DNA of 64,000 bases from Rhytidiadelphus loreus (taxonomy: Eukaryota; Streptophyta; Bryopsida; Hypnales; Hylocomiaceae). Numbering within the stretch: position 1 is the first letter of the stretch; each line of letters opens with the position of its first letter. Shown here one piece after another: positions 30,563-62,434 of this stretch. The notes below the pieces were generated by a model. It was not told the DNA's origin, searched no databases, and saw nothing but the letters and a program-made list of their open reading frames with translations. A program made the position numbers and the translations under genes. Location: NCBI GenBank assembly GCA_947034895.1, contig OX344762.1:70922981-70986980 (forward strand), read 5' to 3'.

Positions 30563-32116
30563 GGGACCCTTCTCCCTCCCAAAACACCCCCTTTCTTGTA
30601 TTTGGGACTATTGGTCCCGCTTTGTGTGAAGATTTTGGCCCTTTTTGGCCAAAACTCTTGAGTCTTGTTTTTAGGCTTCTTTTGAAGCCCTTGTTGGTGT
30701 TTTTCAAGGAGTGTAGAGGACTTCGGAGGTCTCTCTACACCTTGTTGCTACTTTGAGTTGCGAGTTGATACCTTGTTATTACAAAGTATTGGGTCGAGTT
30801 GGTCATTGATCTTTGTCCTTGAATCTTGATGTTATACTTATTCTAGAGTTCATCCTCCACTGTACCTTGGCGATGCCGTTTTGGGGGACCTCTAGCCTTG
30901 TGTTTTCCTCACCCTCGTGGAACTAACCTTTGCTACTAACTTCAAGTCATTCTTTCCTGGTCACTAACCTAAGTCCCATACGTGGTATTGGTTCTAGTTT
31001 CCTTTGTCATTGTTAAGGAAAAAAGTGGAGTAGTTCCCCTTGGGGTAATAAAACTCTACCTTTCCTAATTGGTCCCAAGTCCTAGATTGTGTGTTAAAGG
31101 GTCTATTAGACGGCAGAGCTTTGAACCTCCAGGGGTTCACAAGTCCTAGATTTGGTGTTAAACCCAAATCGACGGCAAAGTTTTGAACCAACCATCTAGT
31201 TAATCCCAAAGTTTAGTTTTCAAAATACATTGGAACAAACCAAAGTTTAGCATCTAAAATAGAGGTTTTTTAAAGCTATGGTCCAGTGTCAAGTCCCGAC
31301 CTTTACTAGATATCCTGGGATAGCTACGTTCTGTTCCAAGCACTGGTGAGACCTTCGCCCTCCAATTGTCAAAGAGGTTGGATACTTTTTCAATTTAGTT
31401 TTGTTTGTGAGAGTCCAACCAGTTGGGTAGCAAGCCCCCAGCCAGCCAGAAGTAGGCCCCCAACCAAAAAGCAGGCCCCCAGCCAACGCAGCAAGCCGCC
31501 GTTGCCATTCCGTATTCCTTTTTTTTTTTGGGAGGGTTTGGGAGGTTCTTAGTAAAAACGGAAAAAAGTGAAAAAAGAGAAAAAAAATTAACAACAAAAT
31601 TAGTATAGAAGTAGAATGGGTTAGTATAAAGAAGGAAGCATAGTTTAGCATAGAAAGGGAGGAGCATAGTTTAGCATAGAAGTAGAGTGGATTATCATAG
31701 AAGTTAGAATAGCCAAGCATAAAGAGTGAAGCAAGCAAGAAAATAGTCTATCATAACCTCCTTCAACCTCACACCCTCTCACCAAACATCACCACACGAA
31801 GCCCACCTCAAATGCACTAGAAGAATAGAGGGCTTAGATAGGGAAGGAGCACTATAGAGGGAGATAGAGAAGAAATCCCTTCCACCATTAGGGTAAGCTG
31901 ACGCGTAAAGAAGTTAGGTTGGGTGTAAGTGGTAGTTAGTTAGCATTTTGACTTACTAAATAGGTAGGTGGCACTTCAACCACCTTCCATTAAGGGGGCA
32001 CGAGTGTTGAGGCAAAGGAAAAGGAGGAGAAAGAAATTGAGAAAAATATATATGCACCTTGCGCAGCTATAAAGAACGTTTTAGACCAATGGGTGGAGTC
32101 CTCCTTGCAACTTGCA

Positions 32117-32146
32117 ATGGTAGAAGGGGGATACTTGACCGCCTTA
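32117..32146 (+). pseudogene. LTR-borne first exon (copy C), split by CACTA-3
   Basis: ATG and nine further codons (MVEGGYLTAL) run directly into the CACTA-3 left end. After removal of CACTA-3 and one TTA, the exon continues at 62435-62455 (IMDLYAK) and ends at GCTAAG|GTAAG, again in phase 0. CACTA-3 therefore disrupted this exon. Confidence 0.4.
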
Positions 32147-32400
32147 CACTAGAAGAAACCCGCGTTTTTGGTGACAAGCTATTAACATGTTAGTTATGTT
32201 TTTCTTGACGTTTGCCATGTCAACTTGAATATCAAAAAAAATGCGTCAGGATTGACAGGCCCAAAAACATGCGAAAACTTAAAAAACGTGATGAGATTTG
32301 AAGTAGATTTCAGAAGACGTCATAAAAAACATGGACTTCAATGATGTGAAAAACTTGCCATGTGGCGGCCACATGGGCGCCAACTCAGCGATGATAAGGC
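32147..32400. repeat. Left terminal and subterminal region of CACTA-3
   Basis: The terminal inverted repeat is about 28 bp. It is followed by about 220 bp alignable with the left end of CACTA-2, including TTTTTCTTGACGT and TGCCATGTGG words. The right counterpart is at about 62403-62431. Confidence 0.8.
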
Positions 32401-41000: not shown

Positions 41001-43498
41001 TCGAAAAAGCAATTAACCCTCCTGTTTTATGCGCACAATTTCTAATGAGGCGTGCAGTATATTGCACACCTTATAAACGACACTTCTTCCAGTTCCTGTC
41101 ATTTCACTACCTTCGTAGTCATTGGTTATGGACAAAATGATCACATGTAACACAATAATAAACATATGAACAAAACAATAAAATGCAAAACCTATGAATT
41201 TTACCTCCCGTATGTTGAAGATTACATGTGCAGCTGGTAGAATGCACAAGTGCCATGCCATGCTGAGTCTGCCCTTGCACCTTTGAATACATGAATGGAA
41301 GGCATGGCCTGTCCCAGAAATGATTTGATCATTGACAGTGGTACTGCACTCATTACAGATTTGTCAGACGAAATGCTTGTCATTGACCGGTAGCACCTAC
41401 AGTACCTTCCGCATGCGTGCAAGAGAACTGAGCGTCGTCAATGCTAATCTGAATTGAAGACGTGTGCACTGCTGCTCAAAGTACGATTGTTTGTTCAGTG
41501 AGCACATACACATACAAAATTTCATATACTGTCAAGTGAGATTATGCCGTTTATACTATCTACTACAAAATGTTACAGAAACATGACGATGCCTATGCCG
41601 CGAGTAGTTCAGCAGAATGTAATCATTCTATTGTAGTTGGAAAAATTGTTGACAAATAAAATTAGAGGTCATACCACATACTGTGGAACACATTGCATGC
41701 ATTCCTTCCTTCACATACTAGAGGCACACACTGTACACCATACTCACTTCCGGATTGTCGTCATTGCACATGATTGGATCTTCGCATGCTGTACATCAAC
41801 AAACAAAGTGCAATCAGTTCTTTAATGTCGTGTACAGTCTTGTACATAGTGCACCTTCAGAATACAAAAAAAAAAATATGCCCTCTCGTCACACACGTCA
41901 TGACTTCGAATTCGATATCCTGCATTCTACATGTGCATATAATGCACTTGTACGCAAATTTTTCATGTCCATGTTCATGGAACTCCATGTCGTACTATGC
42001 AAAAACATTATCCTTTCAAGAAAGATCTCACACATTTAATGAAAAAATTACACTGAACAAATCCACATGCCACCTACGACTGCCTGCCTTGAAGTACAAT
42101 TCAAAATAAGCAGCGCAGTGCTCTTCTTCAAAATTGAAGAAAACAAGAAAATGCTTCTCTGAATTCTGAAGTGAACTGTACAATAGACGCAAACCGAAAT
42201 GAATATGCACAATGTAGCTTCACCACAGAAATCCATTCACAGAAGTTGCAGCATTCGGAAAAGCTCTTGTGTCCAAAGAGCTCTTTTTATTCCTTCCACT
42301 GAAAAGTACTTCGCATCCACACATTTTCTTCAAGTAGCTAACAAATTCTGAAAGACCCTTCAGAATGCATTATGTAGCAAGCACTAACAGTACCGCGAAA
42401 AAAAGGCAAGGACAACACAGACGAAAACGCAAGCGTACATCTGCAAGGACCAGACAACGGCAGTAGGGATGCGTACCTCTGCGAACAGAACTATCCGTCT
42501 TCTTCAAGAAATTTCACTGTTGTAGACGCAACTTCCCTCTCAGTTCTGCTTCAAGCGTATGACGTTGTCGACATTCGTAATTTGCTGAAATTTCTTTCAA
42601 TGGCAGGCCCGGTGATGATAGTGTACTGACCATGTTCAACTTTTACAGCAACAGTACGGTAACCAAACGCCGAAGACGGTACTGCTATGTATTCACAGTG
42701 ACGACGTCGGCGCTTAGCACAGCTTGTTCAACCGTGACGAAGGAATTCACATATCCCACTATGCGGAACTCACATGTTCACCTAAGCGGCAGTGAAACTG
42801 AGCACTACCGGCCATGGAAGAGACACTTTCCTGTCCTGCGAGATGTCCACTATAACGCGCAGACGTTCAAGAAAACGTGACCGACAACGGTACAATAACG
42901 TACTCTTGAACTCTAATTCTTGAGGTCGTCGTCACCAACGTTGTCCGTGACATAGTACGACATGCGCATAAAACACTCAACGGTTCCTCGAAGCGCTGAT
43001 GTCTTCTTGTACATTGCTTTGCTCACTTGTCGAAGGGAATAACATCATTCACTACTATACAATTATGCATTCACACGGACCTACAGCACACATGGTATCA
43101 CTATAGGCGTGAGATGCAAACAATACCCACCTCCAGTGCTGTTGCATGTCAAATTCATGTAGTGGTCGCTCGTCGTCGCGCGCCTCCTCCGACGATGCAA
43201 TTGAAAACACTTCCACGATCTTCTGCTTCTTCGTTGTTGGGCTTGATGTGGAAGGGTTCCCCTTGCTCTTAGCTACACTGCTTCTCTGCAGTAGTGTGTC
43301 ATTGAAGTGCTTGCTGCGCCTTTCACCTTCCGGACGCATTTGCATCACTGGTGTTCCATGCCCAGCACTTTGTGTTCGTTGTCTGTGCTCGTCTTCAGTG
43401 CGACGTGCTGGTGATACCCTTCTTCTGATCAGTTTTCCCTTAGGCTGCGGCATCCTCACTCGCGGTGCACACCACCTCACAAATTCTTGACCTTCTGT
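35022..43498 (-). CDS. CACTA-3 accessory gene, plausibly TNPA-like; interrupted by one TAG
   Basis: I reconstruct five - strand exons: 43498-43131, 37298-37018, 36874-36594, 36328-35678 and 35210-35022. All have GT..AG borders and matching phases (2/1, 1/2, 0, 0), 590 codons in total. The first intron is 5.8 kb and may hide other exons. Exon 1 is basic (KGKLIRRRVSPARR). Exon 2 has an acidic stretch, then MKKPIQVDAEG. Exon 3 (KVNPKWFGVYITKG, PDHWDTMCARRTS) has the spacing of the Transposase_24/PF03004-like TNPA region. Exon 4 is helical and probably coiled coil (EIEEEVAKEFKRLELEK; LEGTVARLETKM). Exon 5 is lysine-rich. A TAG at 37187-37189 lies in frame just before an ATG. Either the gene is dead, or translation starts at that ATG. 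Its expected role would be binding subterminal motifs. The family match is tentative. Confidence 0.5.
37299..43130. other. Long stretch inside CACTA-3, probably intron of the accessory gene
   Basis: None of the many short frames shows a domain. The words TGTAC, GCATTC and CATTGCA are common throughout. Additional short exons cannot be excluded. Confidence 0.3.
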
Positions 43499-44289
43499 CT
43501 GCACATAATAGTACAACAATCATTGCGACTGCCACTAGCAACAACATTAGACGAATTCCGTGTACATGGCCACTGCAAGCACAGGCGACGCACAACAACA
43601 AGTGCGTACTTCACTGAAACTGAATGCAGCACCTTCGATGCCCATTGAAAAAGTAACATTTCAATGGAACATGGCCCTACAGTATGCACTACTTTTACAC
43701 ATGCATCAGCACGGCGACGACTCTTCTTTCGATTGGCAAGTACATGACGATGTTCGGCTCATTCATGTACAGTCGTCAGCTCTGCAAATTTTGCAGCTCT
43801 GACTACGTCAGCTATTGCCAGTGTACAGAAGGACTGAATTCGAGCCTTCCTAAAGTACACAGCAGTGTCATTGCCAGATTCAGTGCAACATACAAATTCA
43901 GTGCAAACAAACCTGCTTAGACAAAATACAATTGACTGAGGAACTGAAATCCACTAACGACGTCTTCTGATGCGAAGCGATTCACGAAAACCTTCTCCTT
44001 GCACCTCTGTCCAGTAAGAGCAGACGTTGACGACAACAACAGTGCAAGCATGAGCATGGTCACGGAATATAAAAAGTGAATTACAGCCTAGGACTGTAGG
44101 TACAGGGAACATGTGCACCTAAGACCATGGCCAACCTATCGCCGTGAGAATTGGTTGCGTTAGACGGCGCACCAGCTGCAGCGCCGTCAAGCCATACAAG
44201 GCTTCCGCATTGAAGGAAAACCATTGTCGCCTACATAGTGACACGCAAGTATGGACTCAGATTTTAATTGACAGTTAGGAGTAGCGTGT

Positions 44290-44619
44290 TCAGACCTCCG
44301 TGACAGCACTTCCACTCAGTCGCGTAGGACGCGGAATCGTTGGAGCAACGAACTGGGGAGGTGGATGCGACGGCTGCCATTCCTGGGTTTCACGGAGTCG
44401 CTCACTTCTGCGTAAGCGCACCTCCACTTTGTGTATGCCGTCTGCATTTTGCTTCATGGCACTGGCACATGCGGTCGCCAAGGCGTGTATGACAAAATTC
44501 TCAAAAACGTGGAGCGCTTCTCCAGTAACTTCGACTTGCACTAACGTATTGCTGTGTACAGCCTCATGCAAATCCAGTACTCTATCGTGCTTACATAAAT
44601 TCTGTGAAAGTTCCATCAT
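44290..44619 (-). CDS. Hypothetical ORF in CACTA-3
   Basis: This is an open frame of 109 codons. It has a helical first part (alanine-rich, HALATACASAMK), an arginine-rich patch (KVEVRLRRSERLRET) and a proline-rich end (PSHPPPQFVAPTIPRPTR). It may be a terminal exon of a - strand gene upstream of the accessory gene, since it has its own stop. The local sequence is richer in CpG than its surroundings. Not recognised. Confidence 0.3.
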   Translation of the reverse strand: MMELSQNLCKHDRVLDLHEAVHSNTLVQVEVTGEALHVFENFVIHALATACASAMKQNADGIHKVEVRLRRSERLRETQEWQPSHPPPQFVAPTIPRPTRLSGSAVTEV

Positions 44620-46230
44620 ATTCAGATTCTACTGCTACATACGCGAGGAAGCCACTGCGGCTAGGATTATCATTAGTGCAGTCTGCCGTCTGCGTTCTCG
44701 TTCGTGTGCACAGTGACTACTGCGGATGCGTGACACGTGTCGCGGAAGACATAAGAGCCCCGGAACAGTCCACGGTACAGAGCCCGACATTGAAGGACGT
44801 CTACGCGAACGTAGACTTCGACACGCTCACGTCTCCGATAGCACAGTCATGTTCCGCAGGACGTCGGAGTGCACGTCCTCATGTGTTTCATATGTATCTT
44901 CATTAGCCTGCGTCGTGAACGAGCAATTGTAGCTGTACATCCACAATTTCCGCGTCTTCTACTTCCTTACCCCCACTTACAAGAACAACTAATTTTTAAG
45001 TTGAACATTCGTACAGCATAACTATGGCAATGTGAAAATTATGAGGGGCTGAAAATTTCTGCTGCGCGGACTTCAATTCACCGTACTAAGTACATAATAT
45101 GGTAGGCAGTTCATGAGCTATTATGCACTTGTTTTGGCATTGTGCACGATGATTACTGTCTCCAATGAAACAATGAATGTACTCTGTTTATTTCAGAATT
45201 ATCTACATGAACATGAAAACATACCAGGTTTCCTAGTTTCGAGAATTGGAAATGTACTAGTGCGCCATTGCGGCTTCAAAGTTGGCAATTCCGAAAATGG
45301 AATTTGTACAGAGGAATTTCAATGCACTGAAAAGCTTCAGTGCTTTCTGCTACATACTCATTCACAGCAACTAATGTATTTGGCTACTAGAATGTTGTAG
45401 TACATTTTCACGAGGACAAACTTGCTTGACAAATGGTGAGCACTGAATCAGTTTTGTGCCTTCTGTACTCCACATGGTAGTCATTAGTAAGTCAGAATGT
45501 AATGAAACTGGGGGAGAAGGCTGAAAGAAACATACGGGAATTGCATTGGCTGTCATATTCCCGTCCGAAATTGCATTCAGTATGTCAGTTCTATGTCACT
45601 TCTCCCGTTTGTAGTGAGGGGTTTCAGTGAGCTACGTTGCAACATTCACAGTACAATAAGGACATGAGTATTGCATAATCCATATTCAGTGATCCAAGGC
45701 ATGCAGTACAAAGTCTTCCGAATTAGCTCTGTAGAGGTGTCTATATATGAATTTCTGTGCTCTCCGTAATGGACAAACGAAGTGGCGCCTTCGTAGAATC
45801 AGAATGAGTCCATGGTTATCTTCTAATATGTACGTGCTGTTATATGTGAATTACAATTGCTTTGAATTTATTATAAGCTGACGAACACATGCATTCATGC
45901 ATTGAGGAATGCAGTACACATAAGTCTCAGCAGTGCATCTGTATGTGCAGGATGTTCAGCTCTGTAATTTGAATGCGCGGATCGTGCAAGCGAAGACGTC
46001 ATCAGCTAATAAGGTTTAAATACGCATTCTTCGGTGTGTTCCTGTACCATCATTCCTGTACAGTTTGAACGAACTGAATCGTTGAGTGCTGATTTACACG
46101 TTCTGTATGGTAGCATTTTCACGAATTTAATCACAATAATTTCACAAACATGCTGCTCATCAATTCAATATAGAGTATGCTCCATGCATTCTCCATTGAT
46201 GACTGCTGTCGTTCCCATTGTCATAGCAGA

Positions 46231-46620
46231 ATGTCAGTGCCAATCTTGTTTTCGGATAGGGAAGAGGAATGGAATGTTGAATCTGTAGGAGACTCTGATG
46301 TGCTTGAATCTGTCGGAGAGTGTGATCATCCTGTCGAACAATATCCGTTCGAGGAATATGATCTCGAACATTCCAATTACTTGGAGCATCTTGTCTTTCG
46401 ACACATGGAACACATGGAGTTGCATGACTGGGGTTTAGTGCGGGGAGAAGATTTTTTGGCCAACAACTCATACTTCAGCAACATGTACACCATGTCGCTT
46501 CATTACAATGGTTTCTATCCATTAGATAGTTGGGAAGAAGAATACGAAAATTGGCTTGCCGAACAAGTTTATTTTGCAATGCTACAGGGTGTTGCTTCAC
46601 ATCCGACTGTTTGCATATAA
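46231..46620 (+). CDS. Hypothetical acidic ORF upstream of the transposase
   Basis: Starting at the ATG at 46231, the frame gives about 129 residues. The first half is strongly acidic (DREEEWNVESVGDSD; YPFEEYDLEH) and the second is rich in aromatic residues (WEEEYENWLAEQVYF). It ends 0.64 kb before the transposase start and is on the same strand. An upstream ATG at 46177 is possible, but the residues it adds look unlike the rest. No family is recognised. It could be a small accessory protein of the element or an open frame without function. Confidence 0.35.
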   Translation: MSVPILFSDREEEWNVESVGDSDVLESVGECDHPVEQYPFEEYDLEHSNYLEHLVFRHMEHMELHDWGLVRGEDFLANNSYFSNMYTMSLHYNGFYPLDSWEEEYENWLAEQVYFAMLQGVASHPTVCI

Positions 46621-47255
46621 ACTGACTTCACATTCTGTACGTTCGAACACATATATACAGTTCACTACAGAAGGACATGTACATGAACGTTGTACTTGTA
46701 AATGAGTGAACTGGAGAGAATGCCTTTCATAGTATTCATGTACTGCCTAATGCACGTAGATTTGTGAATATGCCCCATGTCAAGTTGTACATGAGTTCAA
46801 ATGTGCAGCTCATGTATCTTCACTTCAAAGATGTTGTACATGATGTTCAATACAGTATGAAGTGCATATATCATTACAGAAAGAACTTTTGGAATACTGT
46901 TCAATTTCTGTCATGAAGTTCCTGAAGTAGTACGCACATGCTGCAGTATTGCATTGCGCTTGTTCTCATTCGTGCACTTATGGCAATTTAGGCAAGAACA
47001 TGTCATATGTTTCTATATACGTGGAGTTCAGGACACAGTCTTCCACTTCTGAACCATAGAAATTACGCAACATGTGCGTAGAGGACCGTTAGTATTGCTC
47101 AGAGCTCTTTAGCTAAACGTATACAGTGGCTTCTGCTTTAATATTAGTTAATGTCTTTTTTGTATGAATGACTGTTTTGTTTCCTATGTTTGTACAAATG
47201 CTTAATGCAACTGCTCTGTGCTGCATATGACTGTGATCATTGAAGACTGATATAC

Positions 47256-50200
47256 ATGAATACCGAATACCGAAATTGCGGCAGCACTGTTCGTATAATA
47301 GTCGATGGGCGTGTGCTCCGACACATTCCCATAGAGGACTTGATATTACAGACGGAGTTGCGCGTGGCCACTGAGAAAAATGTAAGGGTGTACCCATGTC
47401 CTTGCAATGACTGTCACGGTGGACGACGCAAACGTATTGAGACGATCAGGAGTCACCTAGCAACTATTGGCCGAGATCCTTTTTTGTTGAAGTCCATGAC
47501 CGGTGGAGACCCTGTAGATGGCTATCCACGGCAAGGTCTATGGGTGGAAGACATTGCATATGACAATGACATTGTGCATGATGAAGGTGCACATGTTCAT
47601 AGTCCAAATTATAGTAACATGGATCCAATGAATGCTGACAATGATGATGTTCCTCAACCAGTGCATCTTGATGAGTATCATGAGGTGCACCGTCAAGTTA
47701 TGGAGGCCTTTGATACAGGCGATGCGCTGCATATGGAGGCACCGGAAGTTGGAGAAGTAGTAGACAATGATGATGTTGATATGGACACTTTGGATGGTCT
47801 TGAAGAGTTGTATGAACAAGCTACGACACCGTTGTATGTGGGTGCAAGAACGAGCGTGGTGTCAGCCACCATCATCATCATGAACATGTGCATCGTTTTC
47901 CGCGTGAGCAACAAATTTACAGACGAGCTATTGAGGTATCTATCACGTGATTTGCTACCAGAAGGAAACAAACTCCCCAGTAGTCATTACATTGCACGAA
48001 AGACTATTCGGAAGTTGGGTTTGAATTACAGCAGCATTCATGCATGTCCTGATGGATGTGTGCTTTACGAAGACGACAACGCTTTGTTGAACACATGTCC
48101 TAAGTGCTTGAAGTCACGTTGGGTGGATGGTAGCAACGTCATTCCGGCGAAGGTTATTCGTCATTTTCCCCTCATACCTCAATTGAAACGAATGTGGCGC
48201 TCTAAGGACATTGCAGGCATGTTAACCGGTTACAAAAAGCATGTCAGTGACGACGGCATCATGTGTTCTGTAGTGGACAGTCCAGCTTGGAAGCACATTG
48301 ATGAAAATGCCACTTTTGGCAATTTTGGAGCTGAGTCCAGAAATCTACGTCTTGCACTAGCATTGGATGGTGTGAATCCGTTCAAATTGAGCAACACTAA
48401 CTGGTCAACATGGCCGGTGCTCATTCTCATATACAATTTGGAGCTGTGGTTTGTGACAAAGAAATTCTTTATTTCATTGTGTATTCTGATATTTGGGAAA
48501 ATGTCACCGACGTCCAAGAGCATTGACGTCTTCATACGGCCATTGTTGAGGGAACTACATGAATTGTGGGAAGGTGTTGCAGCGCAAGATTTCTCGCAAG
48601 CGGAAGGTTCAAGACGTTTTACATTATGTGCTTTACTCATGTGGACCATATCGGATTTCCCAGCATATGGCCTCATATCTGGCTTGTGTTGTAAGGGTTA
48701 CAAGGGTTGTCCTCCTTGTGGTCCTCAAACTGACGCTCGCATGGCCAAGACTGGTCAAGTCATAGGACAACGACGTGTACGAGGCTCGAAGATAGTTTAC
48801 GGTGGCATACGTCGATATCTACCTCGTCAGCATCCATATTGTCGCAATCGACGTTTTAATGGCGTTGTGGAGCAACGAGGTAGTCCTCCGATAATGTCCG
48901 GAGAAGATGTTATAAGATATGCAGCATGGCTACAGTCTTATTTGGATTTGGGCGGGAAGGAAAACGGTAAAGATGACCCTGTGCACGTAACAGGTGTGAA
49001 GCGATTGAGTGAGCTGTACTTCCTCCCGTACTGGCAGGTACGAAATGATTAGGAACTTGTACCTGCATTTCTTGCATTGTAGAATGACAAACAAAAGCAA
49101 GTAACAGAAGTCGGAAGCCGAGACATACATCATATGCATTTCCAATGTTTTGTGTGTGCTCTATATAGTTCATGTCAGTAGTTGGCTAATTAAATGTTGT
49201 ACATGCATTCAATTTTCTTTTGGTCTTGAAGTCATAGGAATGTAGAAGTACATTGACACTACATGCATGATAGTAGTAGTGTATACTGAATGCACATTAC
49301 GTGAAATGCATATTGTAGCGGACTGTGATGTTCACACTGTTTATGTAGAATGTCCTGTACATGCTCATACAAGTTTACTAATGTCTTCAATAGTATCTTT
49401 TGGAGCGGCACATCTTGGATGTGATGCATTGCAAGAAGAATTTGTGTGAGAACATGTTGAAAACTACTCTTGGTATGAATGATAGTCGGGGGAGTCGCCA
49501 AGATGCTCTGGATTTGGGAATTCGTGAAGAAATATGGTTGCAACCTGCACAACGTGAACAAGATGCATTTTACATGCCGCATGCACAGTACATACTGAAT
49601 GTTGATGAACGAAAGGAGTTTGTGGACATAATCTCGCAGATAAGGACACCTTCCAACTATGTGGGCTCCATCCACAAATGTTTGAAGGATGGGAAACTGC
49701 AATATATGAAGACACATGACTATCATGTCCTTATGCAGCAGGTACGATTGATATTTACAAACAAATAGCATGGTCTGGAATTTGTACATAAAAATTCAAT
49801 ATTCGATGGTCGTACGTACATTATTGAGTATTAATGTCCACTACAATGTTCGACTGCACAGGCAGCATAAACAGAAGCATGTGATGTTCTAGAGAATGCT
49901 ATAATGCACTTGAAATGGAACAGCATGTCACACGCACTACATATTATGAAGAAGAGGAGGTACTCGTGATCATTACAATACAAACAGAACAGAAATGGCA
50001 AGAAAAGAACAGAAAAGAAAAATATGTTTTTACATGTATGTATTGCTCAAATCTTGAAGATCGTTGCGTGGAAGTTTCATTTGAACGTTTTTGCAGATTC
50101 TTCCTATTGCTATGCGGAATATTTTGGACGAAAACGTGCGTATAGCAATTATAAGAACGTGCAGAGTTTTTCAAAAACTGTGCGAAAAAGAGATACATGA

Positions 50201-51796
50201 GGCGGACCGTGATGCTATGATGTCCGACGTCATACTAGCTATGTACATGCTGGAGAAGGAGTTTCCGACGACATTCTTGAATATCATGACACATTTGCCT
50301 GTGCACCTTGTTCAACAATTATTCACTTGTGGTCCTGTTCATTGTCGATGGATGTACCCTATTGAAAGGTACATGAAGACATTGAAAGATTATGTGAGGA
50401 CGTACGCACATCCGGAAGGGAGCATAGCAGAAGGTTACCGCATGGAGGACACACTTGGTTTTTGTACAGAGTACATGAAGGAATACGAAGGAACAACACA
50501 CCGAGTATGGGACCCTGTTGAAGATGCCCGCATGAATGATGAGGTACTACGATGTGACCAATCAAGGAGACGAAAAATGTCCAATGACATTTGTAGCTAT
50601 GCACACGCATTTGTACTCGACAATGCAGCTTCTTTGGAACCTTGGCGACAGTAAGTGCATGGCCATTTGTACTTGTCGTTTCATGTCACTTTGAATAAGC
50701 AGTGCAAGTTTGTATTTCAATTTGTAGTAAATAGTACAAATCTTTGTACAGTTTCTATGAATTACTTCAATAGGTGGCCTACCACATTGTCATTACAAGA
50801 ATGTACTCTTAGCGACGTTTTAAAAATAGGACTTGAACAAATCTGGCTAAGTGCATTACATCCGTATTTGATGTTGTCTGTTAAAAATACAGTCGTTAGT
50901 TAAATTTTTGGGTTGGGATTTCAATTTAATGGCTCTTCTGAACAATGCTTGAATATAGGGAATACGTACTTGCGAAGGGACGTCGTTGGCAAGAGCGTGA
51001 GTTGTTTCGACAACGAACACGTAATCGTAATGCTTCTGGACGAACGCAGTACCCTTCTGAATTGAGTGAGCTTCCAGCATTTGTTGATTGGTTACGAGCA
51101 CGTGTATACCACGTACAAGATGAAGGGCAGCACGTCGAAGATGACGTCATACAGTATGCTCAACCACCTGAGCGGTATGCAACCTCACACCGCCAAATGT
51201 ACGCTTTTGGAATGCATTTGCGGGTTCGCAGTTCGGAGGTTGGTCTTGTCACTCGTGACTCCTGTGTCGTTGCTTCTTTTTCACGTCAACTTCGTTGGGG
51301 CCTTCAAAATGGGAGACCCATTGAACAAAGCGATGACTATGTCGGATACATTGAAGAAATTCTAGAGTTGGATTACAGAAATCATTGCACAACAGTTCTA
51401 GTGTGCGATTGGGTGAAAAATAGTGGTGATTCTCGTTATCCGAACATAAAGCGAGATAAGTACCGATTCACGATGGCAAACTTCAATCACATGGATGGCA
51501 GCGTGCATGCGAATTCTTTTGCTTTTCCTGCACATTGTCAGCAAGTATTCTTTTCCGACGACCCGCACAAACGGGGATGGAAGATTATATGTCGAATGGA
51601 TGTGCGGGGGAGACGCGGTCAACTACAGTTACCGCAAGTGCAACCGAGCGTGATGGACATAGGAAACAACGCGAACTTTGCAGGACTACAACTAGACATG
51701 ATGGAGTCTGATCCAGTGAGAGTAGCGTCAACAATTGACGGTACATACATCATAGCATCAGAGGACACTACAGAGCAGCAGGATGTGCAGCAGTAG
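47256..51796 (+). CDS. CACTA (En/Spm) transposase, TNP2 family, four exons, apparently intact
   Basis: Exons 47256-49037, 49394-49741, 50097-50650 and 50959-51796 have GT..AG borders (GCAG|GTACGA, CAATAG; GCAG|GTACGA, TTGCAG; CGACA|GTAAGT, ATATAG) and join in phase 0, 0 and 2. They give 1173 residues with no stop. Residues 44-60 have the cysteine-rich transposase-associated motif (YPCPCNDCHGGRRKR). About 260-288 has IHACPDGCVLYE..CPKC. The TNP2 catalytic region (PF02992-like) follows: LALALDGVNPF near 370, IDVFIRPLLRELHELW near 425, ISDFPAYG near 466, then RHILDVMHCKKNLCENML at the start of exon 2. Exon 3 holds the DUF4218-like part (GPVHCRWMYPIERYMKTLK). Exon 4 holds the DUF4216-like part (YRFTMANFNHM). 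It cuts and pastes the element in the nucleus. The start codon choice is uncertain; a noncoding 5' exon is possible. Confidence 0.88.
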
Positions 51797-51937
51797 AACA
51801 CAGTAGGACAGTGTTCAATGTATACTGTTGTGAATGATGTATTGAATGTACAGAAAGTACCCTATACTGTAAGTTGGATAACTATATTGTAATGCAGGTG
51901 TTTTGCCTTTCTATATACATGCCCGCGAAAGTGTAGA

Positions 51938-51943
51938 AATAAA
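51938..51943 (+). terminator. Candidate polyadenylation signal of the transposase gene
   Basis: AATAAA lies 142 bp after the transposase stop codon, a usual distance for a plant 3' untranslated region. The flanks are T-rich. Confidence 0.4.
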
Positions 51944-52139
51944 TATTGACAATGCCTAACATTGTCGTTTATGTGTTTTCGAACATAGAAGAAAACATCA
52001 ATGTAAGTACAAAAAAGTTAGAGCAGTAGTATGAAACTATGTCCAATGCAGCAAAGGAAAACATGTAGTTCATGATGTAATCCGTTCTGCAAGAACCAAA
52101 CACTTTTTTGAAACAATTTTTTAGGCTACAGAAATTGAT

Positions 52140-52940
52140 AAACTTCTTTGTTTTATTTTTATTTTTTTTGGATTGGTACCCTGGAACAGAAATTCTGACT
52201 ACGGAAGCTCAAAATAGTTGACGACGGGCAGTTTGAGCAGCAATAAAGAAACTAAAATAAATTTTAAATTATTTTTTCTGAATCGTTTTCTTGTACATTT
52301 TATTTACGTCTATTTTGAAAGTTGAGCTTCATTTCATTTGAATTTGTCATGAAGAAGTGAGAGAGTCTTCTGGAGAAAAATAATTTGTAGGATGAATTAG
52401 TGAATGCAATTTTCCCATTTTTTCCATATAATAATTCCCCATAATTTAGTTTAATTGATAGAACAATCTGACCATTGGGATTACTGCATTTTAATTCCAT
52501 CTCAAATATATTAAGATTTTAGATCTTCATTTTTTGTCATAGCTATTTCTACTGAACATTTTTTTAAAGAATGAAAATTACATTTCTTAGAAATTTTATA
52601 TTTTTTGTGGACTGTGAACTGAATTGTCTACTACAAATATTTGAAGCTCATAACTATATGATGCAGAATATTTAAGTTAAAAATGTTGAATGTCAGAAAA
52701 TGTAGTCCCGTAATGTGCTGAAGAAATTGTTCTTTTTTCTTGAAAAGCATATATCTCTCAATGTCTGCGGTAAAAAATTCTGAAATTTTTTGCGTAGTCT
52801 CATAGGAGTTGGCTGTAACAGCGAACGGTTAGATGTGGACCAAAAACTTATTTTAATTTTTCTGAATTCTTAGCTATGAAAATGGCAGTTTTGTGTGCTG
52901 CTTGGGAGAGAAAATGGATTGGTTCTGTAGGGATTAAATT
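52140..52940 (+). repeat. R1 family copy inside CACTA-3
   Basis: It is collinear with 12.9-13.56 kb. Shared words include GTAGGAT..AATGCAATTTTC, GATAGAACAATCTGACCATT, TTCTACT.AACA.TTTTTTAA and AAATGGCAGTTTTG. It ends with TCTGTAGGGATTAAATT, corresponding to the R1 right end. The left boundary is unclear. Confidence 0.55.
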
Positions 52941-55736
52941 AAAATATATATTATAAGGAAAATGTAGAATTTTTTTCATACAAGAAGAAACTTGTAGAAA
53001 GGAAAATAGAATTTCAGAATTTCATTTTTATTAAATAATGAAAAAATAATGATGTATGAAGGAATTGCAATATTACATATTATATTGTCATATTTGGATT
53101 GTAGCACATGGAGCTCTTAATTGCAATAAGTTAAACAAGTTTTGAAAATTTTGAATCAAATTCAACGAACTTGCAAAGTACAAGCGTATACCTAACATTA
53201 CAAAATCAAAAACTAAATAATAAGAAACAATGTTTTTGCTTTGAAATAAAGAAAATAAGATTGTATGAACGCATCCAAATACAGAATGTTCTGCATTTTC
53301 CGAAGCAATGTAGGATGGTAGGATTTATTGACCAATCCCGGAGCAAGGCAATGTCTTCATATTATGAATAACAAAATGAAAGAAAAATTATGATTGTTAT
53401 ATTAGTATTTTTTTTATTAGTTGTAGTAATATTAAGGAAGAAGACTGTTACATTCCAAAAAATTCTAGCCACAAACAGGCTACAAGTTTCAGATTTCCAG
53501 CACCCCTGCGGTGCAATTACTGGACAATAAAAAATTATTTAATGTTAATTTCAAAAATAAAAATAAATATTAAAAATGATATTTTAAACTTTCGAAAAAA
53601 TAATTTTCTTAGTGTGGCGCTAACATGGGGCCAATGGTGCTACGTCAGATTCCGAATTTTCTATTTTTTATTTTTTAATGTTTATTTTATTTTATTTTGT
53701 CAGTACAACACTGTAGTGGAAGCTTAACTTTGGAGCACTCCTACGTCCAATTTCTGAACGACAAATACAGTTGAATGTAGTTTTATTTGTCATTAGTACT
53801 TTGATGAAACTTCTTTTCTGCTAATACTTTATGAAGTTGTTGTCCTATCGAGTGGTTGCATTTGGTGTTATTAGAGTTTATATTCTTCAAAATTGAAAAG
53901 TGGAGAAGTGTGTGAAGCCGAAAATTGCGTACTGTTTACTTCACAGTAGAATTTTAAGAAATGAGGTCATAGATGTCTACAACACAGGAATTTCGAAATT
54001 CCACAATAGAAAGAAAACCTCATTTCAGAGTGATTCCAAGAAGCTGTACTCAATGAATCGTAATATTTTGCTTGTCATTGAATGTGAAAGAAGTTTGGAA
54101 TTTGTCAATCAGAAATCCTAAAACAATATTGGTGATAGCACTAGTGAATTGAACCGTACGGATGGAATGTGAAATTGAAAGCCTACAACTTTTCACTGTA
54201 TATGAATTCCAAAATATTTTTCAATGTAGCACTGAATAACGATTTCTTCCAAATCATGAATTCCAGGAAAGCATGTGCGCGTACAGGGGTGAACAACGTC
54301 TTGTAGGCTGTATGTTTTCCTACAAATTAGTAAATTACAAGCATTGGGATTGAGGATTTCTGAATCCAATTATGAAATTCTTAATAATTTACCGTTTTCA
54401 AATGCTTCTCTACATCTCGCAACTTACAATTTGTTTCTTATATGTTGTACAAATGAAAATGATGTAAAACATTTGAAGCATGTACACAACTTGCCTTCAA
54501 CAATGAATTGAAAGAGTAACCAACATTTTGAAAAAAAATTCATACAAATATGTCCTTACGAATGGTAGGTACCTGGTTTTCTACAGGGCCAACAAAATGA
54601 ACTTTGTTCATTGAAACGCTAATATGTTGCTATGAAATTGGTGCGAAATACAGAGTTGTGAATGTAATGTTCATGAAGGGACGCTGCTGTGAAAGCAATG
54701 TGTCAGTATAAGTGCTCTCTGAGGTTCTGTCTGAAACATGTACCAGCAGTGTACATTTCAGTGTGCCTTCGCTTTTCAAACGCACTTATGCTTTAAAGTT
54801 CTGAATTCCAGCACAAATTCCTGGAAGTTTCCAAAAATATGGGACGACTTCAGTAATTCACTGACATTCGAATTCGACTGTGGAGAGTAGTGAAACGCAG
54901 AGGACAAATGTTTGAGTAGCTGTGCGTCCCCCGAAATGCAAATCACAGCTGAAAGGGTCGCTTTCCTAGCATTGATGACCACATTGCTGGAAAATGAAAG
55001 GGGTTTTCTGTTATTGTAGTACACTGTCACTATAGAGCTAGCTAGTACACCAGTCGTTTATCATATTGAAGTGCACGGCGGTCACTTCCGTGTACTTGTT
55101 TCATGTCATTGAAAGTCTGTCATGGACATGTCAGAATGTACAGGAGCCGTAGATGACATGTATGTCCCACATGACTCTAAAATCGTAAAGTTCATTCAAA
55201 TGGTAGAGAACATTAATAATGGAACATGTACCCTCAAGCCACATAGTAGTGACTAGAACATGGAAGAACTCTAGAATGTTCCAATGGTGGTCGCTGTTCT
55301 GTATATGAGAGAGTCCTTCATCACAGTAGTCATATGCAGTCGTTGGGAGAGTTCGTAGTCTATCCGGTACACACTACTTCACGCCTGAGAAGCACGCATA
55401 CGCAACGGAGAGAAGGACAGTCCTTCACGGTGAAGGTGCGTTTCTATGAAAAATGAATTCCACAAGAGGTGTCTTTCTTGTGGCATGCACTTTTCCGGTA
55501 GTATGTCCATTTCGAACTTCTGTTGCCAAACAGGTTGGCTTCAGCGAGCTTGCGTGCACAGTGTGTATTGTTAGTCATACTGAATGCACACTTTCTTGTA
55601 ATGTCGTTTCTGTGCATCTACAATACAGGAATGTTGCTTCTGTTTCCAGAGGGTTACTGTGACTGTAGAACTGAAGTTGTGTTCATGGGATATAGTGTAT
55701 TCACTACGAAGGTGCATTGCAACTTCTTTTTCTGCA
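52941..55736. other. AT-rich interior of CACTA-3 without a recognised gene
   Basis: Several short frames exist (for example the minus-strand frame 55030-54776), but none carries a recognisable domain. A palindromic word, CACCCCTGCGGTG, near 53502 resembles the R1 hairpin. Confidence 0.35.
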
Positions 55737-56027
55737 ATGGGTTATGAGGAACACGTCGGCGACTCTTTGGACTACACATTGTCGCCGCCCGGAGCTGAGT
55801 ATTGGTGTCCAGAAAAATCACTGGAAGACGATGGCTGCTCAGTGGAGAGAAAACAAGAGGACGTCGTGCAGGATATGTCGGAGGGGTCATTACTTGACGA
55901 CGTTTTTGAGGAACTTATGCAAGAAGAATTGAAGAATGAGAATGGCAGTACAGATGAAACAGCGGACAGTAGTTTCTCTGCATCTTACTCCTTTGCATCG
56001 ACGCAGGCATCAGGCACGGATTGGTAG
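55737..56027 (+). CDS. Hypothetical acidic ORF in CACTA-3
   Basis: From the ATG at 55737 (context CAATGG) the frame encodes 96 residues, strongly acidic (LLDDVFEELMQEELKNENG) with a serine-rich tail (SSFSASYSFAS) ending GTDW. Its composition resembles an activation domain. The sequence upstream stays open but looks noncoding. No family is recognised; the start was chosen by composition. Confidence 0.35.
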   Translation: MGYEEHVGDSLDYTLSPPGAEYWCPEKSLEDDGCSVERKQEDVVQDMSEGSLLDDVFEELMQEELKNENGSTDETADSSFSASYSFASTQASGTDW

Positions 56028-58750
56028 CCTCCTGAAGACCAGACTGAAGTGTTATGGGTATTTTGGTTCCTTATCTGTAATTTTGCTTTCACTGGCGGAG
56101 TAGTGTACGGGTGGACAACAATATGCATATTTGGTGATTCTCATGTTACAGACCAAGGAAATTTCAACTGCGCATTGAGGAGTTGAATGTTTACCGAAAG
56201 TTGAAAGTTTTGTCATTCCTATAAATGGAGAAGGAACATAAGTGAACTTCTGGACGCATTGACTAAGGAGTACTGAGACATACTATTTTGGAACTCCGTG
56301 TATGACATTGTAAGGTCCTATTCATGGTGACTGCATTTTTGGTTTTCCAGTGCTTGTGCACTTCCGTTTCATAGTAGAGTGGTCGTACGCTGCACAGTAA
56401 CGTCATACGTAATTATCATAGGCGTGGATGCTGAGTACGAGTGCCTGTATATGTACACACATTTACTATGTTCAGTATATATATTTCCCAAGATTTTGTA
56501 AGTGCTCAATGTGAATGAAGTTAGCAGCGTATGACGCAGTGTTTTTATTATGATTTGGAATTCGGAATTTGAGATGACTTTAGTTTCCTTTGTATTCATT
56601 GGGTAGAAGCAGAAGTTCTTTTCCGCGGAATGTGTCTTTCAAATTAGGAATATGAAGGACGCCTGTACTGCACATTTTAATGTATGTTCTACAAAAACAG
56701 AATTATGTTCTGTTAACAATGATGTCTGTACACGTGCCTGGGCAGTCGGAGCTTGTTGAAGTTGTATGCGACCATTAACTTTCAAGATTTGGTTGCAGGA
56801 CTTGAAGTGTATGCAGGTGTTAGCAAAGAAAAAAACACGGAATTGGATGGACACGAAATAGCACTTGTGGCCGTCTATGTTATGCATCTCCGTAATTTGT
56901 GATGGCAGGTACGTTCACTCGTAGCACTGTCATAGTGGCAATGCCTACAATGTGATGGCCAAATGATCCATGATTTCTCTGTCGAAGAACACATTTCACG
57001 TTTGTACCTCTTCTTTATGAAAAGGAAGAAACATAGTCATATTGAAGTTCTTGTTCTGAATTTCCGTAATGAATACTTCAATAAAATATGAAGTGATGAA
57101 CAGAAGGAGAAGCTGTGCAATGTACAGTGCATGTGCGGATGAGAAAGCACAAATACTGAATTGCAAAGGTATATTGACTTCCCGTTTGATTTCTGTATGA
57201 TGGATTCATACAAAGACATATTTGTGTAGATCCAACAGAATATCAGAGATTATGAACTTCTTGCAAAGGTTTCTCTGTGATGGTAGACAGGAAATGACCT
57301 GAGCATTGGACATAATGTCATTTACTAATGGAAAGTGTCATTGAGAACTGTCTGTGTCATTTTCAGAAGCAATGGAATATAGAATCGTACGTACAAGGCG
57401 AGGTCCACATTTTTCTTCCTTCTGTGTACAGGTTCTGTGCATTTCTTCCTTATACACTTCCATTGGCAGAAACGAATTGGTGACAAAGTCTGCCGTGTAC
57501 ATCAGTGTCCATATTGTTGTGCATATGTTGTAGCGGTTGGAACTACAATATCCTAGGTAATTCCTGGACGTTTATGTTCTGGTCTCCACGCTTGCCGTTG
57601 TCAATGAATGGCTGCACTGCAATATGTATTGGAGGGCCAGTGACGGCTGGCTTCATGTCTTGAAATTGGTTGCGCAGGTCTCTTATACAAGAAATTCTTG
57701 GGCGAAGATTAACAATTTCTACGGGCGATTTTCATCAGGTATTCTGTCAAGTGCTACCTATTGTATTCGAACGTCGTTTGTGAGTGGAAAACGTACAAGT
57801 TGTGGCATGAGCAAATTACAAGAGAATGAGAATGTGCATGAATCATACAGAGGACACATTACTCGGACTGAGGAAGTGCATGAGAACGTGTGCACACTGC
57901 GGAAGCACAAGTGCCTTTACAATGAATGAACTGAAGAATGTGCGGAATCATACTGTAGCAATACGCAACACTACAGGACATGCTGAATGGATTGCTTTGA
58001 TTTCGTAACTTCATTTTCTAACATGAAATGTGAAGCCTAATCTCTCATTCCGTGAAGATTGCATATGATACCATATCATTAAAGCTGTATAACAAGCATA
58101 GAACATTGCAAACTTGTAGGGCATCACGTTTGAAGGACAGCATTTGTAATTTCATATGTGAATTACTGTTTTCTGACGTCTGAAATGAATGTGAAGAAGG
58201 AAAAATGTACAAGGAAACAGCTAACGGTATTTACATATGATTTTTATGAATTCAATTTGTAATTGCCTGTACTGGTGTCAGCATTGGAATATGGACGGGC
58301 AGGAAGGCAGCATGAGCATTGTCGACTTACTGGAATGGAAATGCAAGCTCATATAGGAAATTTTCAAAGCAAGGTATGGTGAAAGTGCACAAGTACTAAA
58401 CAATATATTGTATTCTATGAAGAGACGGTGCATGCATCAGAAGTTTGTAGTTGTCACGTAATTTCTGTCTTTGTTTTTCAAAAGTGTAAGCATTGAAAAT
58501 GAAGCCCTAATAAGTCTTCCTGTATGGTAGACATACTTAGGCATCCATGTGACAAACAAGCGTTCTAAAAGTGCATACAATTGTAGCTTTCGGAGACTGT
58601 CATTTCGGTACTATTATTGGAAAATTGCACTTACAGCTTGAAGGTGTCATAGTTGCCACTGGAAGCTGCATTCCATACATGAACAGGGTGCAGCATATTC
58701 TTTAAACGTTTTCTTCATGTCTTGCAGAGGTTTTTCACAACGAACTGGAA
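56028..58750. other. CACTA-3 interior, no gene supported
   Basis: One open frame at 57624-57929 (+) has no motif that I recognise. The + strand is G-leaning here, unlike the left arm of the element. Confidence 0.3.
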
Positions 58751-59160
58751 TCACGCAAGATGGTAGACGTTGAAATATGATTTCGTGACCAAGTCAAACT
58801 TCAGGCGGTCTCCTTCGTGAACGTTGTGTTGCCGTGCGAACTCCTTCCACCCACCTCCAAAAGAGACATGCGCATGCTCTTTTTTCCCCATCAGGTAGAC
58901 ATTAACAGTGACAGACCAAAGTGGTTCACGGCCGTCGTATCCTAAGTGCACCTTTTTCGTGAAGTTGTCTCCATGTTCACGGACGAAGCTAGCAGGAATA
59001 GTCTACGCAAACAGTGAATGGAAAATCAGATTGCAAAGAAAGAAGATTTGCTTTCGTAAAATGACAACGGACACATGCGGAGAGAGGGTGAAAAGCTTAC
59101 CAAGGTCTTCAAAGAAGAATTGCTCATTGTTTTTTCAAACGACGTGCTGACAGCGGCCAT
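58751..59160 (-). CDS. Single B3-domain protein, two exons, inside CACTA-3
   Basis: Exon 1 (59160-59101, 20 codons) starts in a good plant context (CAACGATGGCC) and ends ACCTTG|GTAAGC. Exon 2 (59002-58751) follows an acceptor, GCGTAG, and ends in TGA, with phase 0 at the join. The 103-residue product is essentially one B3 DNA-binding domain: SFEKTMSNSSLKTL then TIPASFVREHG (residues 7-31), KKVHLGYDG..LWSVTV (36-53), FGGGWKEFARQHNVHEGDRL (68-87) and KFDLV to the end. The IP, GW, GD and terminal hydrophobic strand positions of plant REM-like B3 domains are all present. It probably binds DNA in the nucleus. It may be a captured host gene or an element-encoded regulator. There is no second domain, stop or frameshift. 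Confidence 0.8.
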
Positions 59161-60984
59161 CGTTGTTGACGCTGCAAATGGTGTACTGCAACGACGAAAA
59201 TGTAAGAGGACTTAATGACTGCAGACAGGTCTTAGCGCAGAGGAATGTAAGAATGACGCAGACGGTGGAGGACTTGTAGCAACGGAGCTTTCTCTGCAGT
59301 GATGCAAGGGAAGACTGTGGAAATGGAGAAGGGCGTTACTCTCTTGTACGGGGAAATGTGTATTCATTGGTAGATTTTGCGTGAATCATCGGATTTGATT
59401 TTTGTTTAATGAAAGATATGAGTAATTTTGGAGGAGTGACTTGCAGAAGCTGAATTTTCAGAAGGGACAGCTTGCAATAGCCGAAGATGGGATCCCATAT
59501 TTATTGATGTAAGTGTGTCAATTTTTTTTTCGGGTTGGGAGGAAATGGATTGTAGCTAGAAATCAATGAAGGCTATGAAGGCACAGGGAGCAGCGGTATG
59601 TTCTGGCAGTCCCTGTCTTTTTTATTTCAGAAAGAACTTTGGATTCCTCATTATTAAAAAAAGCAATTCCAACGATGACTGCAAAGAATGTAATTTTGTA
59701 GTGCACCCTGTACTGTAGTGCATGACATAATATGAAGCATGACAGGATCACATGTAAGACTGAGGATAGAAATAGCATTTGAAATTTTGTTGTGGAAAGG
59801 AGAGTTGGACCTTAATCGCTGAGCCGCAACATAAGTTCAATGTCAATGTCATAGGAAAAGTCACATGTTCTTAAAGCAATTTCTTGTAGTATTTTATTGT
59901 AGAAAATTAAGATAAATTTTCTATTTTACTATGTTTGAATACATGTGAACTTGAAGACACCTCAGGTGAAGTGAAGATGTACTCCTTCACAGTGATTTCA
60001 CTGAGCTATCTTGAAGTTCAGATGTGCTGGGGAGAGAAGGTGGTATGCAACTTCATACAGGTACAGGTTCTGTGACTTTTTGGGGAATATTGTATGGAAC
60101 AATTGAAGTGGACTTCAACTGTTGGAAGCGTTGGAAGTACTTAAATCTTTTCAGTTTTACCATTTATTTTAATTTTAATTAATGTATAAGCGGCAGATGA
60201 AAGTGCCTGAATCACAGTCTACTGTTATTGCAAATGTATATCTTATTTCAGAAGAGAAATAGCTGAGAAGAAAATGTGATTCAAACAAACATGTGGCATT
60301 GAATGTGACAATGAAACTGTGGTGCCTGAAATGTACAAGGAACTGCAAGTACAAGTTTTATGAAGGCCACTTTCTGCTTCCTGTCATTGCAATTCAAGAG
60401 TGCTGAAATTAGTAATAATTTTTGTAGAGTTCAACAGTTCAGTAGAAGTAGTCTATGGCTTCTACGATTCAAAAATGGAAAAGTAATGAACATTTCAACA
60501 GAGCAAATATTGAAATGAATTTTCTATTTTAATATGTTTGACTAATCAATTTTATGAAAGTACTATTTCATATAGAATACTGAAATGTTGTTTCTTCTCT
60601 TTCAACTGAACAAAAGTAACACATACAGTGAGGGACTACATCTGAAAAGAACTAACCATTTCATAAGTTCATTCAATTCCAAATTAAAAATATGGAAAGT
60701 GAGTTCGGCAGTAGTGCATTTGCCAAAAAAGCGTGGTATAACTATGTACTATGCATATATATTTTCTATGAACATGATATGAGTAGCATGTTGAATTCTT
60801 GTTAAAAAATATATATAATATTTAGTGAGCTCTTTTTTAATAGAATAATTTCATCGTATATGTCATTTCATAGGAACTAATGATCTATAAGTGTGAGTCT
60901 CACTTTCATTTGGGAAATGTGGTTATATCTAGCAAATTATTTAATTGAAATTTGTTTGATATGGACCACGGTACACTAAGCTTC
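59161..60984. other. CACTA-3 interior, probable 5' flank of the B3 gene
   Basis: This interval contains no convincing frame. G-rich on the + strand to about 59.5 kb, then AT-rich. The B3 gene's promoter should lie in its first few hundred bases, but no clear TATA box was identified. Confidence 0.3.
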
Positions 60985-61880
60985 CTTACATCCAAAGAAG
61001 CCCTAAGATACCATTGTTCACTCGCGGTGCAATGGAGATTTCGGGGATGGTCGTTGGACCTAAAATTATGTCCTCATTTTTTTAAAACACTCTAGAACAT
61101 ATATAGGGGATGAAATAAGCTTTCGAAGCATACAAATGTCTCTCCAATTTTGGACATGGAGCACAAGTTTTGGCACCCAAAGCTTAGAAAGTTGTTCACT
61201 GCGCATAATTTAGAAATATATTTATATATTTTCACTAAACTTTTATTCTTTTCATGAAAGATGATGTACACATGTCTACAGCTGAAGCTTGTATTCATTC
61301 TATGTGGACTGATTATGACATAGTTCTGGACAATCTCATTTCTCGGGCAATGTACGAAAAAAAAAATTATGAACTCATTTCATAATTCAATTTCCAAAAT
61401 TCATTTTTTAGGGAGCATGAACTGTATTTGCAAAAACAGTGTCACCACTGGGATTCGAAAGTTTCAATTCCATCTTACAGCAATCAAGTATTTTTTCGCT
61501 ATGTCAATCTCAGATTTAATTACTTCTACTGTAGAACATTGTAATGAATGCAAACCATATTTTGCACTCTTAATAATCTTGCGTGAACTGTAAACTGGAA
61601 AGTGCAGTAGCTGTTTTTTAAAATTCATGAATTTCTGTGCCACAAGAATCCATACATGGTAATGAAAGTCTTCTGAATTTCTTGACCACCATTCACTGAA
61701 TTTTTTTTTCTCACTTCAGAAGCTCATGTTTTCTAATCCGTACAATGAAACTTCATTACATTTGAACCGCATGATACAGGAGAACTTCAGTAAAAGAGCT
61801 TATGTTCACATGAAAGGAACAAAAAAATCTATTTTCGGTGATCACAGAACAAATGGCAGTTTCTACTGTTTGTGGAGCCA
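60985..61880 (+). repeat. R1 family copy near the right end of CACTA-3
   Basis: It starts with AGCCCTAAGATACCATTGTT and a CGCGGTGCAATGGAGATTTC stretch matching the R1 left end. It then follows the 12.6-13.5 kb copy: GTACACATGTCTACAGCTGA, CATTCTATGTGGA, GGACAATCTCATTT, TCTACTGTAGAACATT and CAAATGGCAGTTT. Confidence 0.55.
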
Positions 61881-62402
61881 GAAATTGCCTTCATACTGCA
61901 AGGGTTACTGAATGACTGTGATGAGTGCGCATGACAATGCTAGTTATTTTTGTACATGCAATGTAATAAAACTTACCATTTGAAGGACATGCAAATGAAG
62001 ACGACAAATGCATGATGCATAAATTCGTTTCTTCAAAACATGCAATGCTTCCCAATTAAGAAATTCAAATAAAAACTGAAAGTTGTGAGTTGCCATACAT
62101 TTCTTCTGGAATACGACAATGCTTCCACGCAATTGTGAAATTAAAGCACTTCACGGTAATGTCCAATGACTACCCAGTAGTTACCTACAATGAAAGAAGA
62201 CAACTTGATTCATGTTCCATTAATACATTTTCCTCGACACAATAAAAAACAACACTTTTTCTTCTCTGACGTCTAACAAAACATACTTGTTTCCTACTTT
62301 ATTCACATGTTCGTTACTACGTCTACAAGGATTGTGCCATCCAGTACCTCAAACTTTGTAACGCTTTCTTGTTTAAAAAAACATGTTGCGTTTTTTGTTT
62401 TG

Positions 62403-62431
62403 ATCACAAAAAATGCGGGTTTCTTATAGTG
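62403..62431. repeat. Right terminal inverted repeat of CACTA-3
   Basis: It ends GGGTTTCTTATAGTG, followed by TTA. It pairs with 32147-32175 with three or four mismatches over 28 bp. Confidence 0.88.
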
Positions 62432-62434
62432 TTA

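Follow-up and report, generated by a model that had tools for sequence, protein, structure and literature searches.

A selected B3-domain gene appears to be resident in CACTA transposons of Rhytidiadelphus loreus

Pack-CACTA elements hold gene fragments in an element that has no transposase of its own. For TnpA of Spm, activation has been described as correlating with demethylation (PMC10398659), and the VANC proteins of VANDAL elements carry DUF1985/DUF287 (PMC5735166). The portion of the account of En/Spm and the soybean Tgmt* elements that was available (PMC2613891) mentions no B3 protein. A search of the open-licence PMC literature by title and start of abstract found no report of a CACTA-encoded B3 protein, which is no proof of absence. 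Here we describe an element that resembles En/Spm (TnpA, TnpD) in having CACTA terminal inverted repeats (TIRs), a 3-bp target site duplication (TSD) and a tnp2-type transposase, and that differs from it in carrying an additional, separate gene for a single-domain B3 protein.

The window, i.e. the whole stretch of 64,000 nucleotides that was analysed (G000:C2:70922981-70986980), contains an element with TIRs beginning CACTA, a 3-bp TSD and a tnp2-family transposase. Its features, and those of the B3 gene within it, are as follows; c2 to c11 denote sibling loci elsewhere in the genome.

32147..62431, no strand: CACTA element of family A, 30,285 bp, with a TIR pair and a TSD
32144-32146 and 62432-62434: TSD TTA, on both sides of the element
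32147..32174, + strand: left TIR, CACTAGAAGAAACCCGCGTTTTTGGTGA; the TIR arms are 90% complementary
62404..62431, − strand: right TIR, CACTATAAGAAACCCGCATTTTTTGTGA; the same end type is found in siblings c2, c5 and c11
36995..37186, − strand: ORF with a piece of ~36 aa that, by sequence comparison, is 42-47% identical to the second conserved ORF of c3, c4, c7 and c8
47244..49052, + strand: tnp2 transposase ORF (Transposase_21, Pfam E 6.7e-56)
49394..49768, + strand: transposase-gene ORF without a Pfam match, omega 0.09-0.12
50085..50654, + strand: transposase-gene ORF with DUF4218 (E 6.4e-31)
50942..51796, + strand: transposase-gene ORF with DUF4216 (E 1.3e-7)
55737..56027, + strand: acidic 96-aa ORF, ending ...STQASGTDW; 10 of the 11 close copies of the B3 gene have it as a neighbour
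58751..59002, − strand: B3 gene exon 2, 83 codons plus TGA
59003..59100, − strand: B3 gene intron, 98 bp, GT..AG, found at the identical position in all 11 close copies
59101..59160, − strand: B3 gene exon 1, 20 codons from the ATG, context ACAACGATGG
58008..59900: B3 gene with flanks that can be aligned with the siblings, at 72% in c5 and c11 and, as far as 59750, at 69% in c3 and c4

The gene represented by the ORF at 36995-37186 may also include those at 36486-36923 and 35654-36328. The second conserved ORF of the siblings gave nothing above cut-off in a Pfam search; it is a candidate TNPA-like gene. An AT-rich block (27-33% GC) at about 52000-54450 is probably a nested insertion within the CACTA element, and pieces of it are similar to 12991-13250 and, inverted, to 16102-16227. 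Two further TIR pairs were seen in the window. The first, CACTAGTAGAAA of the family-B type, spans 12536-16099 with its arms 3.6 kb apart and no matching TSD, and may represent a non-autonomous relative of elements of the c3 type. The second, CACTATAAGAAA, spans 23246-28554 with an imperfect TSD (GCA/GTA); a 1.3-kb direct repeat (24211-25535 and 29288-30617, 78% identical) overlaps it and extends past it, and this pairing may be false.

The first-pass annotation had claimed an intact two-exon B3 gene inside a CACTA transposon, and the claim is borne out: the element is bounded by TIRs and a TSD, and the two minus-strand exons encode a product of 103 aa that consists of one free-standing B3 domain. 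The PF02362 profile, on which that annotation had let its B3 assignment depend, matched with E 7.8e-12 (45.5 bits against a curated cut-off of 30.1), covering profile positions 1-91 of 101. B3 was the sole Pfam family above cut-off on the 103 residues; the two weak families below it were neither DUF1985 nor DUF287. Among proteins of solved structure the best profile match was At1g16640, which we take to be a REM protein, at a weak E of 0.0019, followed by VRN1 (0.13), TEM1 (0.22) and RAV1 (0.51). Foldseek with a model of exon 2 gave no significant match. The protein is probably a DNA binder.

A homologue search with the single protein as query yielded 2 candidates, none at E ≤ 0.1. With a 10-row alignment as query, six metagenome-derived proteins were found (E 1e-27 to 5e-8); they cover 36-90% of the query at 52-67% identity. 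One of these, P0001, reads ..FRVQTIPASFVRQHGG.., as expected from read-through of the acceptor into the same exon 2. Five of the six (P0001 and P0003-P0006) end in an acidic tail of the ISSD/LSSD type, which the window protein lacks; these I/L-S-S-acidic tails presumably resemble SUMO-interacting motifs.

A protein search of the window's own genome (407 Mb) gave 122 matches, the best 11 of which share the 83-codon exon 2 after an in-frame TAG that corresponds to the acceptor. We examined 19.9-20.0 kb around each of the ten non-self loci. In all ten the two-exon gene is present and interrupted by the same intron; a CACTA right end, TTTCTNNTAGTG, lies on the 5′ side of the gene, 1.7-4.3 kb from the ATG. 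The B3 frame is free of stops in 9 of the 11 close copies, the stops being in c8 and c10. Three elements were examined at both ends, and all three have a 3-bp TSD (TTA in the window, TTA in c2 and AAA in c3). The ends of c2, on C5, are 30,280 bp apart; it is 98.6% identical to the window over 17.7 kb and 98.5% over 4.1 kb at the left end, the 8.5 kb between lying outside the comparison. Since it is bracketed by its own TTA duplication and its flanks differ from those of the window, c2 is a separate, independent insertion. The c3 element is 32,194 bp long, has AAA on both sides and the family-B TIR CACTAGTAGAAA, and carries a tnp2 of its own in the same orientation as its B3 gene.

Outside clade 1, to which these copies belong, 24 further copies were read. 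Exon 1 with the same motif was present in 17, and 14 of those have GT..AG. In the long-frame copies L052 and L053 the same exon start is preceded by CAG, a pattern that would fit capture, at the DNA level, of an intron-containing gene. The window also has a DUF7869 ORF outside the element (Pfam 6e-37; the relevant spans are 1057-2079 and 7535-8041), and a longer DUF7869-related ORF (E 2.6e-45) lies beside the module of c10 (L025/L026), its link to 7535-8041 having been made by eye. These ORFs perhaps represent a further transposon type.

We compared the coordinates of 118 B3 hits with those of tnp2 loci found with three queries: the window (A), c3 (B) and a locus next to a B3 copy of 45% identity (C). 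The tnp2 loci compared were the best 88-150 of 637-729 candidates, and a B3 hit without a nearby tnp2 therefore proves nothing. For A, 20 of 150 matches were used (83% identity or more), the 130 weaker ones being omitted; for B, matches of 61% or more from the 88 typed of 91, those of 47-60% being omitted; and for C, 35 of 89 together with the B matches of 46% or less, so that some loci occur twice. The B3 hits were divided at 42% identity, a threshold chosen post hoc with the data already seen, giving 62 hits at or above it and 56 below. A listed tnp2 lies within 25 kb of 36 of the 62 stronger hits, within 40 kb of 40 and within 80 kb of 46; the 36 correspond to 33 distinct tnp2 loci, as tandem B3 copies share one tnp2. 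In every one of the 36, and in all 46 within 80 kb, tnp2 lies on the 3′ side of B3. Within 25 kb, B3 and tnp2 are on opposite strands in A (4 of 4), on the same strand in B (15 of 15) and on opposite strands in C (17 of 17).

In 300 random placements, which were uniform and blind to clustering of transposable elements, the mean number of hits within 25 kb was 1.0 and the maximum 6, against 36 observed. Better controls are the sidedness (36 of 36) and the 56 weaker hits, for which a listed tnp2 was found within 25 kb in only 1 case, against a random mean of 0.9, and within 80 kb in 4. When all 88 tnp2 loci obtained with the B query were used, 21 of 58 B3 hits co-located with one, against a random mean of 0.6 and a maximum of 6. 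Relatives of the B3 gene thus regularly accompany CACTA tnp2 of three lineages that are 39-45% identical to one another. There is no listed tnp2 within 40 kb for 22 of the 62 stronger hits, nor within 80 kb for 16; the 22 include c6, which has no listed tnp2 within 3 Mb. Of the 20 A-type tnp2 loci with 83% identity or more, 4 have a B3 hit within 25 kb. For c3-type tnp2, a B3 within 80 kb was found at 7 of 8 loci of 80% identity or more, 13 of 42 at 64-80%, and 0 of 25 below 64%. The B3 gene is not universal among related CACTA tnp2 loci.

We considered whether the B3 hits of 43-65% identity are host genes, and rejected this, as many of them co-locate with CACTA tnp2. In four of these (L030-L033) no TIR was seen within 5 kb, a distance too short to decide. 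At some sites tnp2 has two or three tandem B3 copies, spaced by 4-7 kb, on its 5′ side (C4:21.860-21.870, C3:49.968-49.979, C2:53.770-53.775 and C4:28.599-28.604 Mb). The tnp2 is 15-27 kb away at three of the sites and 57-68 kb away at the C3 site, and the copies look as if duplicated within one element.

The two families of elements differ at their ends. The family A repeat AAAAACATG occurs 4 times in three 450-bp ends and is absent from 26.5 kb inside; the family B repeat GATTTGGAC occurs 14 times in five ends and is absent from 28 kb inside. The repeat words were chosen once the counts were known, and the B ends are related to one another. B3 exon 2 is nevertheless 67-77% identical to that of the window across families A and B. 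Because A and B share the B3 gene and not the subterminal repeats, binding of the ends by the B3 protein is less likely, unless its specificity has changed, and the suggestion of the first-pass annotation that the protein binds subterminal sites is weakened to that extent. A k-mer search of the elements for an internal B3-binding motif gave no sharp motif. Words of the GTAC type are enriched in the elements, which is mostly explained by trinucleotide composition. GTAC occurs 7.0 times per kb in the window element, 1.7 in most of the remaining window and 7.6 in L029, which has no B3 gene; GTAC richness is thus a trait of the family and not of the B3 gene.

The acidic ORF beside the B3 gene matched no Pfam family at E 1. 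A search of the genome gave 12 matches: besides the window copy there are those of nine siblings, one at a locus 91 kb away from the B3 gene of c6, and one short relic. In the window, c2, c3, c4, c5, c7 and c11 it runs from an ATG to the conserved end STQ.S.TDW, where c5 and c11 read TNW and c4 reads SIQ; in c8, c9 and c10 it is damaged or diverged. Compared with seven siblings, the stop-to-stop ORF has omega values of 0.28-0.85, i.e. loose constraint.

L029 belongs to the A lineage (its tnp2 is 90% identical), has its right TIR 2.35 kb past DUF4216, and carries neither the B3 gene nor the acidic ORF. Between the window and c3, B3 exon 2 is 77% identical and the flanking DNA 69%, against 39% for the tnp2 proteins. 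In the B3 tree, where 11 of 32 inner branches are drawn open, the clade-1 copies of A and B form one group (support 94/96) within which A is nested (85/85). Since the A lineage shares the module with a lineage whose tnp2 is 39% identical, while its close relative L029 lacks it, the simplest reading is that B3 and acidic ORF together would have moved from a B-type lineage (c3) into the A-type lineage of the window.

By the NG86 method, diverged clade-1 copies of the B3 gene gave omega values of 0.08-0.38, each with p ≤ 0.0027 (11 pairs chosen from 55), and nine pairs involving other clades gave 0.04-0.27; the pairs share branches and hence are not independent. Comparison of the window's exon 2 with those of nine siblings gave 0.11-0.48, and the window tnp2 gave 0.14 against c5 and 0.12 against c11. 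Young pairs had nonsynonymous/synonymous counts of 3/0 (window-c2), 4/0 (c3-c4), 6/4 (c5-c11) and 4/3 (c6-c8), with a pooled pN/pS of 0.67. The comparison with siblings and their dN/dS, which the first-pass annotation had called for, therefore came out in its favour, in that siblings carry the gene and purifying selection is seen between diverged copies; in the youngest pairs constraint is little and not clearly seen. Weak constraint in young pairs is expected if, as is established for transposon genes, selection acts in the transposing lineage and each copy decays once inserted. The purifying selection seen between diverged copies need not, however, apply at present to the window copy itself.

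Our main reading, that the B3 gene is a resident and selected gene of these transposons whose product acts as an activator or against silencing, has in our estimate a probability of roughly 0.6 as a whole. Its first part is almost certain: the gene sits in TSD-bounded elements and has transposed with them, keeps a fixed side and orientation to tnp2, and is under purifying selection in diverged copies, which argues against a stray capture. The opposite view, that a captured host gene is carried as a functionless passenger of the Pack-CACTA type, draws on the capture of host sequence by CACTA elements (PMC13317346), on the weak constraint in young pairs and on the stops in c8 and c10. It is very unlikely given the selection seen in deep comparisons, the uninterrupted frame of 9 of 11 close copies, and the way in which all 36 co-located hits keep to one side of tnp2, in an orientation specific to the lineage. 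That a host gene family merely lies near CACTA elements, which would insert into clusters of B3 genes, might be suggested by the tandem copies at C4:21.86, C3:49.97 and C2:53.77 Mb. This is hardly tenable: the gene is between TIRs with matching TSDs in all three elements examined at both ends (window, c2 and c3), where the idea is refuted, and window and c2 have the gene in common and not the flanks. For the other copies the argument rests on co-location.

The second part of the main reading, an activator or anti-silencing role, is favoured by analogy with VANC and with TnpA of Spm, and we rate it a little short of even odds. Alternatively, the protein might be a structural part of the transposition complex that binds subterminal DNA in the manner of TNPA and helps to join the ends for tnp2. 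TNPA-type proteins bind DNA and are needed for excision (PMC2613891), and the fixed side of the B3 gene relative to tnp2 would suit such a role; it is nonetheless unlikely, with A and B sharing the gene and differing in subterminal repeats, L029 and 16 of 20 A-type tnp2 loci having no B3 (for the latter, no hit within 25 kb), and another conserved ORF in some elements that could be the end binder. We consider it equally improbable that the protein is a REM-like factor acting on host genes, shifting host expression, e.g. in the germ line, and so raising transmission of the element. The match to At1g16640 (E 0.0019), presumably a REM protein, points in this direction, and the long-frame genes L052 and L053 could be host members of the donor family; nothing found here ties B3 to a host target, however, and neither the co-location with element genes nor the transfer between elements requires one.

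Under the main reading of a resident gene with an activator or anti-silencing role, an intron-containing host B3 gene, probably REM-like, would have been captured at the DNA level before the lineages seen today diverged, and the B3 gene and acidic ORF would later have passed as a module from the B lineage to the A lineage of the window. The proposal that the gene is a captured host REM-like factor would hold at most for a remote origin, as its relatives accompany CACTA transposases of three lineages. Alone or together with the acidic protein, the B3 protein would bind sites inside the element and keep its promoters active or unmethylated, as does VANC, or maize TnpA in its activator role, with cutting and end recognition left to the transposase and a separate end-binding protein. 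In its most specific form, which we offer tentatively and think rather less probable than the role alone, this would be a two-protein module (free-standing B3 and acidic 96-aa partner) that evolved inside CACTA from a captured host transcription factor, counters silencing or drives transcription of the element, has an ancient B3 component present in several lineages, moves as a cassette, and forms the CACTA counterpart of VANC with a different fold.

If this is right, the fold of a plant transcription factor has become a long-lived transposon gene, and some of the genes counted as members of the 'B3 family' of plants may belong to transposons. The apparent exchange between A and B suggests that regulators of this kind spread as cassettes. 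A CACTA regulator unrelated to VANC would also make the independent evolution of sequence-specific anti-silencing directly testable.

Compared with Pack-CACTA and other fragment-carrying CACTA elements (PMC13317346), the window element has in common that probably host-derived sequence lies inside CACTA, and differs in that this is a whole gene with a conserved intron, common to many elements that keep their transposase. The window element itself has open tnp2, DUF4218 and DUF4216 ORFs together with the uninterrupted B3 gene and is thus not a Pack-CACTA. Proteins of the REM type such as At1g16640 are similar in having a single B3 domain of about 100 aa; here, however, the protein is transposon-encoded and has tens of co-located copies, and the REM label derives from a weak match and from a classification that we assume. 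As with VANC of the VANDAL elements (MULEs), a non-transposase protein encoded by the element is proposed to act on noncoding DNA of the element. The two differ in that they belong to different transposon superfamilies, that no tandem target motif was found in the B3-carrying elements, and that the domain here is B3 and not DUF1985/DUF287.
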